This document shows, in pieces, positions 28,596 through 33,817 of a stretch of 36,894 bases of DNA (position 1 is the first letter of the stretch; every line of letters starts with the position of its first letter). The position numbers and the translations under genes were made by a program. The stretch spans positions 1-36,894 of the forward strand of contig JACCVC010000308.1 in assembly GCA_013698305.1 (NCBI GenBank), read 5' to 3'. This DNA is from Chloroflexia bacterium. GTDB lineage: Bacteria; Chloroflexota; Chloroflexia; Thermomicrobiales; UBA6265. The notes under the pieces are model-generated. The model saw only the letters and a list, made by a program, of their open reading frames with translations. It was not told where the DNA came from and did no database searches.

Positions 28596-28689
28596 AGTGG
28601 CTCCCGTTGGGTGAGGATCAGTCTGTCCGACAGGGTCTATCTTGACATCTTGCGCCTGACTCGGGTAGTTTGATCCCAACAACCGAATG

Positions 28690-28970
28690 ATTTGCGTCGA
28701 TCAGAACGAGTACGCACAGGTGTGGATCGTAGCGAGCCGGGTGTGGTGAGATGCCGGTGTGAAACATGTGCCGAATGGATCTGTGAGCAATGCCCCGAAC
28801 GCCGCGAATATCCGTGGCCTGTAGACGGCGTCGGAACTCCACCGTTAACGGGAGCGGCGTATCGGCGCGAGCGTGTTCGTGCCCGTACGATTGAGTGGAT
28901 GCCGTGACGGCATCAACGAGGGTGGCACCGCGGATCAGACTCCGTCCCTTTCCGGGATGGGGTCTTTTTA
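28690..28970 (+). ncRNA. T-box leader (Trp specifier UGG) of the trp operon
   Basis: T-box sequence AGGGTGGCACCGCGG at 28919-28933; specifier candidate GAA-TGG-A with TGG at 28776-28778; structured Stem I-like region; terminator at 28938-28969. Left boundary approximate. Confidence 0.88.
28938..28969 (+). terminator. Intrinsic terminator of the T-box leader
   Basis: GACTCCGTCCC-TTTCC-GGGATGGGGTC: 11-bp stem with two G-U pairs, followed by TTTTT. Confidence 0.85.
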
Positions 28971-28999
28971 TCGTGCAGAGCCATCAGGAGGGAGCGCGA

Positions 29000-30583
29000 A
29001 TGCAATCCACAAGCGAATTGATAGCACACCGAAGTAGCACGGTTCCTCCGATCGGTGAGGTTCGAGTGATTGCGGAGAGGGCGGATTCTCGCGTCCGCCG
29101 GGTAGCGGTGTATCAGGAGCATCCCGCCGATCTGGAAACCCCGGTGTCGGTCTATCTCAAGCTCACGCGCGGAGCGACCAGGGCAGGCTTTTTGCTTGAA
29201 TCGATCGAGGGCGGTACTCGAATCGCCCGATATTCGTTTATCGGCAGTAACCCGGTCCATTCTCTTACCATGCGCGACGGGAGGATCAGCGGCCTTCCGG
29301 AAGACGGAACTTTCCCGGAATCCTACGACGACCCCTTGACGGCTCTCGGCGAGATTCTTGACCAGTTCCACGTGGAGCATGCGAACGATCTCCCTCGATT
29401 CACCGGAGGCGCGGTGGGATATCTGGGTTATGAGGCGATTGCGCGATTTGAGCCTCGCGTTCCCAGGGCGGCGGGCAAGGGGCTTGAGGCGGCGGATGCC
29501 AGATACCACATCGCCGAAACGCTGGTGGTGTTCGATCATCTCGAACGAGTGATGAAGATCGTCAGCCACGTCAACATCAAGCATCCTGATGACGTCGATT
29601 CCGAGTACGAGGCGGCGGTCGATCGGATTGAGCGCGTCGTCGAAACCCTTCGCCGCACCGTCCCAATGCCTCCCGCGACCTCTATCCCCACCGAAACACG
29701 GCCCGTCAATGACCGGTTCCAGCTCAATACGAGTCCCGAGCGGTACCGGGAAATCGTTGAGCGCGGCAAGCAGTACATCCACGATGGCGATGTGATCCAG
29801 GTCGTGCTGTCTCAACGCGTAGATGTGCCGACCAGCGCTCATCCGTTCTCGCTGTATCGGGCGTTGCGGATGGTCAATCCGAGCCCGTACATGTTCTACC
29901 TTGACTTTGAGGATCATCAGGTCGTGGGAGCCTCCCCAGAATTGTTGGTGCGGCTGGAGGATGGAGTCGTGACCAACCATCCGATTGCTGGCACCCGACC
30001 ACGAGGCGAAACTCCCGAGCGAGACGCGGAGCTCGCGGCCGAGTTGAAAGAGGACCCCAAGGAGCGCGCCGAACACATCATGCTGGTGGATCTGGGGCGG
30101 AACGACGTCGGGCGGGTCAGCAAACCCGGCCAGGTTCGCGTGCCGAAGTTGTTGGACGTCGAGCGGTTTTCCCACGTCATGCATCTTGTGTCACACGTAG
30201 AAGGTGATCTCTGCGATGAACTTACCGGCCTGGATGCGCTTCGGGCCTGCTTCCCGGCGGGTACCGTGGCGGGAGCGCCCAAGATCCGGGCGATGGAGAT
30301 CATCGCCGAGCTCGAGACCGATGCCCGTGGCATTTACAGTGGCGCGATCGGCTACGTGGATTTTTCCGGCGGTATGGACACCTGCATCGCGCTTCGGACA
30401 CTCGTGTTCCACGACGGCATCGCGTCCCTACAGGCTGGTGGCGGCATCGTCGCAGACAGCACGCCCGAGGGAGAGTATGCCGAGAGTTTTCACAAGATGC
30501 GCGCCTTGATCAAGGCGATCGAACGGGCGGAGGAGCTGGAGTGCCAGGAAGTCTCAGGAACTCGGAAAGGAGCCACGACATGA
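29000..30583 (+). CDS. trpE: Anthranilate synthase component I
   Basis: ATG at 29000 with [81 protein letters not shown]. Track start 28895 lies inside the T-box. Confidence 0.96.
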
Positions 30584-31200
30584 TCTTTCTGCTCGATAAC
30601 TACGACTCGTTCACCTACAACCTGTATCAGGCAATCACAAAGATCGGGGCAGAGGTCGAGGTTGTTCGAAATGACCAGATTACCGTTGACCAGGTGATGG
30701 ACCGCGTCGAAGAGATCGACGGACTGGTCGTCTCGCCAGGACCGTGCACACCGGATCAAGCTGGCATATCAGTCGAGCTGACACGGAGGATGGCAGGCGT
30801 TCGCCCGGTGCTTGGCGTGTGTCTGGGGCATCAGGCGATGGCTCAGGCGTTTGGCGCACGCATCGTCCACGCCCCGGCCCTGATGCACGGCAAGACATCG
30901 CCCATCCATCACGACGGAAATGGCGTGTTCATGGGTCTGCCGAATCCATTCCCCGCAACGCGCTACCACTCACTCACCATTGACCCTGATACGCTACCGG
31001 CCTCGTTCGACGTCACGGCGCGCTCCGACGATGGCGTTATTCAGGGTATTCGGCATCGGGAGCTCGACCTGGAGGGTGTGCAGTTCCACCCGGAGTCAAT
31101 CCTCACCATCGCTGGCCCCGACCTGCTGCGAAATTTTGTTGAGAAGGTCAGCGGGCCACAGCTGGCGACAACTATTTCACAGAGGTTGCTGGGCTATTGA
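30580..31200 (+). CDS. trpG: Anthranilate synthase component II (glutamine amidotransferase)
   Basis: [47 protein letters not shown] overlaps the trpE stop. Confidence 0.96.
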
Positions 31201-31230: not shown

Positions 31231-32286
31231 ATGATCGAGATCAAGTCAGTCATTCAGCAGGTTGTTGAAGGCGAAACGCTGTCGCAGGGTGTCGCCGCGC
31301 AGACTATGCACGCGATCATGTCCGGGGACATCACCCAGGCGCAAATCGGCGCGCTGGTGACCGCGTTGCGAATGCGAGGCGAAACCATCGAGGAGATCGG
31401 AGGTTTCGCCTCGGCCATGCGCGATCACGCCCTCAAGGTCGAGATTGCGTCGGATGGGCGCCCATTGCTTGATACCTGCGGCACAGGAGGGGATCACTCA
31501 AACTCGTTCAATATCTCGACGACTGCGACGTTCGTGATTGGCGCCGCTGGTGTCCGGATCGCGAAGCATGGCAACCGCGCCGCCAGCAGCCGGTGTGGGT
31601 CTGCCGACCTGCTCGAAGGGCTTGGTGTGCGAGTCGAGCTCACACCTGATCAAGTCTCGGAATGTGTTGAGCGGGTGGGGATTGGGTTCATGTACGCGCC
31701 AGCCTTTCACCCGGCCTTGCGATACGTCGGCCCAACCCGCCGGGAAATCGGCATTCGCACCGTGTTCAACGTACTTGGACCATTGACCAATCCGGCGGGA
31801 GCCAGTCACCAGCTCATAGGCGTCGGACATCCGGAAATCGCCGGCAAGCTGGCCCAGGTTCTGGCGCGGCTGGGCAGCAAACGGGCGGTACTGGTGCATG
31901 CCGAAGAAGGGCTGGACGAAGTCGGGATTGTCGGCGAGACGGCGATCACCGAGTGGCACGCAGCGCGTGGCACGGTCGAGAGCTCCATCGTCACGCCGAG
32001 CGACTTCGGCCTGGCGACAGGCGTCATGGACAACATCGTCGGGGGTGACGTCATGGAGAATGTCGCCATCACTCGCGCCATCCTCGCGGGGGAAGACGGG
32101 CCGCGCCGAACGATTACGCTACTCAACGCTGGAGCGGGTATTTATGCCGCCGAGGCCGCGCAGTCATTGGCCGAGGGCATTGAGATGGCTGCCAGCGCCA
32201 TTGATTCCGGCGCGGCGGCGGCCAAGCTCGACGAGTTGATTCACGTCAGCAACGACGTGGTGATTCCAAGCGAAAAGGTGTCCTGA
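31231..32286 (+). CDS. trpD: Anthranilate phosphoribosyltransferase
   Basis: LLDTCGTGGDHSNSFNISTTATFVIGAAGVRIAKHGNRAASSRCGSADLLEGLG. Confidence 0.97.
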   Translation: MIEIKSVIQQVVEGETLSQGVAAQTMHAIMSGDITQAQIGALVTALRMRGETIEEIGGFASAMRDHALKVEIASDGRPLLDTCGTGGDHSNSFNISTTATFVIGAAGVRIAKHGNRAASSRCGSADLLEGLGVRVELTPDQVSECVERVGIGFMYAPAFHPALRYVGPTRREIGIRTVFNVLGPLTNPAGASHQLIGVGHPEIAGKLAQVLARLGSKRAVLVHAEEGLDEVGIVGETAITEWHAARGTVESSIVTPSDFGLATGVMDNIVGGDVMENVAITRAILAGEDGPRRTITLLNAGAGIYAAEAAQSLAEGIEMAASAIDSGAAAAKLDELIHVSNDVVIPSEKVS

Positions 32287-33134
32287 TGGCGACTGGAGTG
32301 ATTCAAACCGACACGATCCTCGACCGGATTTTGGCTCAGACAGCCAGCGATGCCGCGATGCGAAAGCGACAGGTGGCTGAGAGTGCGCTCATGGAAAGAA
32401 TCGATCGATCCGATCGGCGACCACTGAACCTTGCCAATGCCCTGCGCATAGATCATGTCGCCGTGATCGCGGAGGTCAAGCGAGGATCTCCGTCACGTGG
32501 GATGTTCCCGGTCGAAGTCGATCCGATCGCCGTCTCGACCGCGTACCACAAAGGCGGCGCGGCGGCGATTTCCTGCCTGACGGACGGCCCGTTCTTTCAT
32601 GGTTCCCAACTCGATCTGGAGGCAGTGGCCGATGTCGCGCATCGTGGTGACAATGCTATCCCGGTTATCCGCAAGGACTTCATCATCGATTCTTACCAGC
32701 TTCTGGAGGCGAGAGCTTGGGGTGCCGATGCAGTACTCCTGATCGTGGCCGCGCTCGACGATGCGCTCCTTGCCGACTTGTACCAGCAAACCAATGACCT
32801 CGGACTTTCTGTGCTGGTCGAAGTGCATGATGAAGCAGAGGCGGAGCGTGCGCTGAAGTTGAACCCCTCGGTGATGGGGGTCAACAATCGAAACCTGAAG
32901 ACGTTTGAAGTTGACCTCGGGATCACCGAGATGATCTCGTCGCGGGTTCCCGCGGATACGTTGCTCGTCTCGGAGTCGGGGATATTTTCGGCGGAGGACG
33001 TCGCTCAGGTCGCAGCGTGGGGGGCCGACGCGGTGCTGGTGGGGGAGTCGCTTATCGTCCAGGACGACCGAGAGCGAGCCGTCCGCACGTTGGCTCAAGT
33101 CCTCCGGAACAGTGCGAGGCAGGATCGGAGATGA
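32286..33134 (+). CDS. trpC: Indole-3-glycerol phosphate synthase
   Basis: VAVIAEVKRGSPSRGMF, ISCLTDGPFFHGS, VIRKDFIIDSYQLLEARAWGADAVLLI, VNNRNLKTFEVDL. Confidence 0.97.
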   Translation: MATGVIQTDTILDRILAQTASDAAMRKRQVAESALMERIDRSDRRPLNLANALRIDHVAVIAEVKRGSPSRGMFPVEVDPIAVSTAYHKGGAAAISCLTDGPFFHGSQLDLEAVADVAHRGDNAIPVIRKDFIIDSYQLLEARAWGADAVLLIVAALDDALLADLYQQTNDLGLSVLVEVHDEAEAERALKLNPSVMGVNNRNLKTFEVDLGITEMISSRVPADTLLVSESGIFSAEDVAQVAAWGADAVLVGESLIVQDDRERAVRTLAQVLRNSARQDRR

Positions 33135-33817
33135 CACCGCCGGCCTTCGACCTGTCCAGACACATTGTAAAAGTCTGCGGGATACGGGATGTGCCCGCGG
33201 CGGCCACTGCATCGCGGGCTGGCGCCGACCTGCTGGGATTTGTGGTGGCGGATAGCAGGAGGAAGGTCGCTCCTGGGCTGATTCGCGAGGTTCGTGAACA
33301 TCTCGCTCTTGTCGAGAAGCGACCGCTGCTGGTTGGGGTGACGGTGAACGAGCCTCCACAGGCACTCGCCGATATTGTCGAGCGAGGGCAGGTGGACGTT
33401 GTTCAACTCAGCGGAGACGAAGTTCCCGAGCTCTTGGATGACATCTGTGTCCCTGTCATCAAGACCTTGCACATCGCGCGCGGTATGTCCTTCGATGACA
33501 TACGCCGAAAGGCGGACGCATGGCTCGATCATGCAAAGCCAGTGCGGGCCTTTTTGATCGACGCCAAGGTCGATGGTCACTATGGTGGGACTGGCATCCG
33601 GGCGGACTGGACGGTTGCGGCATTGATGGCTGAGCGGTATCCCGTGATCCTCGCAGGTGGTCTGACGCTGGGGAATGTCGCCGGAGGCATATCAACTGTC
33701 CGACCCAATGGCGTGGATGTCAGCAGTGGAGTCGAGATAGATGGAACGAAGGACCACACGCTGATAGAGACGTTTGTCACGAGAGCCCGGCAGGCGTTCT
33801 CCGCGTTGCCGGGCTAG
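33131..33817 (+). CDS. trpF: Phosphoribosylanthranilate isomerase
   Basis: IVKVCGIRDVPAA, ADLLGFVVADSRRKV, VVQLSGDE, VILAGGLTLGNVAGGI; ATGA overlap with trpC. Confidence 0.94.
   Translation: MTPPAFDLSRHIVKVCGIRDVPAAATASRAGADLLGFVVADSRRKVAPGLIREVREHLALVEKRPLLVGVTVNEPPQALADIVERGQVDVVQLSGDEVPELLDDICVPVIKTLHIARGMSFDDIRRKADAWLDHAKPVRAFLIDAKVDGHYGGTGIRADWTVAALMAERYPVILAGGLTLGNVAGGISTVRPNGVDVSSGVEIDGTKDHTLIETFVTRARQAFSALPG

Follow-up and report, generated by a model that had tools for sequence, protein, structure and literature searches.

A Trp-specific T-box leader of known type in front of the trp genes of an uncultured Chloroflexota lineage, and a tRNA-Ala(GGC) gene nested in the leuS leader of the same genome

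Introduction

The locus examined here raises the question of how an uncultured member of Chloroflexota adjusts tryptophan synthesis to the supply of tryptophan. It lies in the window, i.e. the whole stretch of 36,894 nucleotides that was analyzed, which is part of an assembly of 2.34 Mb in 337 contigs that is 72% complete. Control by TRAP and by translated leader peptides is known for trp operons of other bacteria, while a preliminary description of this DNA had proposed a T-box leader that senses uncharged tRNA-Trp.

Results and Discussion

The trp leader and its alternative folds

When the whole window was searched with cmscan against Rfam 15, the only match at gathering level was the T-box family RF00230, at 28688-28952 of the forward strand, with 97.3 bits (gathering score 93 bits), an E value of 2.2e-20 and the model covered end to end (1-219). 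This is the Infernal comparison that the preliminary description had recommended, and its alignment places UGG in the specifier loop, directly after GAA. The TGG at 28776-28778 inside GAATGGA was thus correctly named as the specifier, and the T-box sequence AGGGTGGCACCGCGG is indeed present at 28919-28933. The elements of the leader are listed below, several of the structural statements being based on alignments read by eye.

28642-28671, +: tentative promoter, TTGACA (28642-28647), 18-nt spacer and weak -10 TAGTTT (28666-28671); by eye
28694-28788, +: Stem I with AGCGA bulge and distal loop; RF00230 alignment, kept in 12 relatives
28776-28778, +: specifier UGG (Trp) in GAA-UGG-A; RF00230 alignment, GAATGG invariant in 13 of 13 leaders
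28791-28830, +: Stem II; RF00230 alignment
28832-28854, +: Stem IIA/B pseudoknot, CGG (28832-28834) with CCG (28842-28844) and CUCC (28837-28840) with GGAG (28851-28854)
28898-28914, +: Stem III hairpin GAUGCCG-UGA-CGGCAUC; RF00230 alignment
28918-28950, +: antiterminator, GAGGG/CCCUU and GCGGA/UCCGU flanking the 7-nt bulge UGGCACC (28923-28929); folding and RF00230 alignment
28937-28969, +: intrinsic terminator of 12 pairs (28937-28965) with U-tract

The promoter candidate has a weak match to the consensus, and a promoter scan did not report it. Folding energies are -9.9 kcal/mol for the antiterminator and -20.7 kcal/mol for the terminator, and against the one 12-pair terminator found, 0.2 were expected in shuffles. 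Both structures have positions 28941-28948 in common, so only one of the two can form. A terminator followed by trpE about 30 nt further on had also been described, and this is what is found: the terminator and its U-tract precede the ATG of trpE at 29000, which has a Shine-Dalgarno sequence AGGAGGG (28986-28992) 7 nt before it. The genes behind the leader are the following.

29000-30583, +: trpE, anthranilate synthase component I; TIGR00564 (trpE_most), 556 bits against a cut-off of 518
30580-31200, +: trpG, anthranilate synthase component II; TIGR00566, over cut-off
31231-32286, +: trpD, anthranilate phosphoribosyltransferase; TIGR01245, over cut-off
32286-33134, +: trpC, indole-3-glycerol phosphate synthase; NF001377, over cut-off
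33131-33817, +: trpF, phosphoribosylanthranilate isomerase; NF002298, E value 7e-43, below cut-off, and operon position

The first four thus exceed curated NCBIfam cut-offs and trpF does not. Upstream of the leader, on the opposite strand, lies a gene for an M42-type aminopeptidase (match below cut-offs).

The predicted cognate tRNA

ARAGORN did not call a tRNA-Trp in this genome because contig C207 begins inside the gene. The tRNA-Trp(CCA) gene at this edge, cut so that its first 3 nt are missing, was read by eye, and its acceptor end CGGCCCT-G-CCC gives G73 as the discriminator. The preliminary description had suggested checking this base and had anticipated a G that would pair with the variable base C of UGGN; the UGGC bulge of the leader does match the discriminator of its cognate tRNA. 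In 46% of Trp T-boxes the variable position is occupied by U and not C, which allows a G-U wobble (TBDB; PMC7778990), so C is common without being universal and UGGC is one of two common forms. The specifier UGG also agrees with the regulated pathway, trpEGDCF being downstream.

A leader that reads another tRNA through a shifted specifier frame, either AUG (Met) or GGA (Gly), has to be considered here, since the A and T preceding the specifier are just as invariant as the specifier itself and the GGN of the +1 frame always encodes Gly, so that the alignment alone cannot pick the frame. The discriminators can: the -1 frame needs a Met tRNA and the +1 frame a Gly tRNA, but the Met tRNAs of this genome have A73 and its Gly tRNAs U73, and neither pairs with UGGC. 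Both shifted frames were rejected on this mismatch, and with trp biosynthesis genes downstream, in relatives also trpS, a specificity other than Trp is very unlikely.

Other T-boxes of the genome follow the same decoding rule. The specifiers of all seven, AUG before metG, AUC before ileS, CUC before leuS, CGC before argF, GAC before aspS, GUC before valS and UUC before pheS, match the genes downstream, which were identified from translated products rather than by a family search, and this indicates that the rule works in the host organism. The Asp T-box (specifier GAC; L006:1501-1839, reverse strand), situated before an Asp/Asn-tRNA synthetase-like gene, is the only other UGGC T-box in the genome. 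G73 is common in tRNA-Asp, and no tRNA-Asp was found in the 72% complete genome. The Arg T-box (specifier CGC; L005:1501-1750, forward strand) precedes an ornithine carbamoyltransferase-like gene, an arrangement that points to a switch acting on arginine biosynthesis and not on a synthetase.

Proposed mechanism and its alternatives

The architecture of the leader, its mutually exclusive folds, the match to the tRNA and the conservation described below argue that trpEGDCF is almost certainly controlled by a transcriptional T-box riboswitch specific for tRNA-Trp. Binding of the tRNA, discrimination of its charge and antitermination would proceed as in the T-box family. When tryptophan is scarce, the anticodon of uncharged tRNA-Trp(CCA) would pair with the Stem I triplet UGG (28776-28778), and the GCCA end of this tRNA with the UGGC (28923-28926) of the antiterminator bulge. 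With the tRNA bound in this way, 28918-28950 would be kept as the antiterminator and the polymerase would read into trpE. Charged tRNA-Trp, with its 3' end blocked, would let the stronger terminator (28937-28965) form, and transcription would end about 30 nt before trpE.

Regulation of the trp genes through TRAP or through translation of a leader peptide, for which the precedents in other bacteria speak, is extremely improbable at this locus, since the T-box model explains the entire leader. No match to PF02081, the family of the TRAP gene (mtrB), was obtained in the 72% complete genome, the B. subtilis positive control being matched, and TRAP control was rejected on these grounds. Three-frame translation of 28641-29000 gave no leader ORF with tandem Trp codons, and leader-peptide attenuation was likewise rejected for want of a Trp-rich ORF in that region. 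The sequence is therefore in accordance with the earlier prediction of uncharged tRNA-Trp sensing rather than either of these mechanisms. It could also be argued from the RF00230 score, which barely exceeds the gathering threshold, that the leader is what remains of a decayed T-box and no longer regulates the genes behind it. However, no functional motif is damaged, each of the two alternative folds is strong, and other T-boxes in the same G+C-rich group score similarly or lower, which leaves hardly any probability for a relic. The leader is rather an ordinary, well-formed Trp T-box of known type, and nothing novel remains open about it.

Conservation and known systems

Relatives of trpE in GTDB genomes come from Thermomicrobia-like and other Chloroflexota. 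A T-box precedes trpE in twelve of the nearest relatives, directly in seven and ahead of a trpS-trpE pair in five (L015, L020, L022, L037 and L042). In the alignment of 13 sequences (the window and 12 relatives) GAATGG and GGTGGCACC are invariant, and GAAUGG together with UGGC is kept in 13 of 13 leaders. The Stem IIA/B pseudoknot, which lies outside the Rfam model, occurs among the relatives in compensated variants (CUCC/GGAG, GGGC/GCCC, GAUUCC/GGAAUC and GAGUC/GACUC). Among ten sequences, a set that omitted the window, L020 and L022, its pairing was equalled by 4 of 20,000 partner-swap permutations, a statistic that still contains kinship; by eye the pseudoknot is present in the window and in L022 and ambiguous in L020.

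The leader shares with the RF00230 family the full-length match, the specifier, the UGGN bulge, the antiterminator and the terminator, and differs from it in higher G+C content and in a longer Stem II loop and spacer, with nothing beyond the family. A T-box before trpE was reported in Dehalococcoides (Chloroflexi) by Wels et al. 2008 (PMC2494555), and judged by that published description phylum, gene and Trp T-box are the same, whereas the host here is an uncultured Thermomicrobia-like lineage. The arrangement has thus been known in the phylum since 2008 and the window adds another member, a well-supported Trp T-box from an uncultured lineage with discriminator and pseudoknot checked, which alone changes little. 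The five trpS-trpE relatives share this leader with its UGG and UGGC, but in them trpS (identified from sequence rather than by a family search) stands between leader and trpE, while here the leader abuts trpE. In those relatives one switch would govern both charging and synthesis.

A tRNA-Ala(GGC) gene within the leuS leader

Outside the window, the leuS T-box of the same genome (specifier CUC; L004:1501-1849, reverse strand, corresponding to G000:C14:7052-7400) contains, as read from its sequence, a complete tRNA-Ala(GGC) gene on the same strand. The gene is nested in the Stem III region, with Stem IIA/B on one side and the antiterminator on the other. When 30 relatives were searched at the DNA level, 19 loci holding this tRNA were obtained; an RF00230 match spans the position of the tRNA in 16 of the 19, and L109 has the same arrangement by eye. 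Nesting was then counted with a pattern that requires a tRNA T-arm 23-83 nt ahead of a T-box: it hit 44 of the 158 class genomes and 49 of the 400 genomes from across the phylum, and a reversed-pattern control hit 0. The nested leaders are as follows.

L004, L091-L098, L101-L109, L140-L141, L143-L144, L148-L168 and L170-L175: nested leuS leaders

All loci that were read have Ala-GGC as the tRNA, nearly all have GAACUC in the specifier region, and leuS is mostly next; the exceptions, by the longest nearby frame, are a branched-chain aminotransferase-like ORF in L167 and a phosphoesterase-like ORF in L171, and the truncated locus L147 gave no T-box match. Of 15 genomes checked, 14 have a single match to the anchored tRNA-Ala(GGC) pattern; the variant in the remaining one, G020, is missed by it. 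Sequences on either side of the tRNA form more pairs with one another than swapped flanks do (mean 7.8 against 6.5 pairs; 0 of 20,000 permutations), although helices were searched for greedily and some of those chosen lie elsewhere. A tRNA placed in the loop of Stem III would be expected to produce such an excess.

No description of a tRNA-Ala(GGC) nested in a leuS T-box was found in the open-access papers searched. We give about even chances to the proposal that this leader is a composite RNA, conserved across Chloroflexota, in which the tRNA is made regardless of the state of leuS and RNase P excision severs the sensor from the expression platform. The tRNA lies upstream of the terminator and would therefore be made with leuS either on or off; if RNase P excises it, the sensor domain would be detached from the expression platform. 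A tRNA gene within a tRNA-sensing switch poses a testable question, namely in which order RNA processing and transcription control take place. In G006 (L100 and L145) tRNA-Ala(GGC) precedes leuS with no T-box visible, and it is possible that there the switch was lost while the tRNA stayed. Another variant is seen in L136 and L137 (G020 and G024), where a complete leuS-type T-box with specifier CUC follows closely behind the tRNA-Ala(GGC) gene and does not enclose it.
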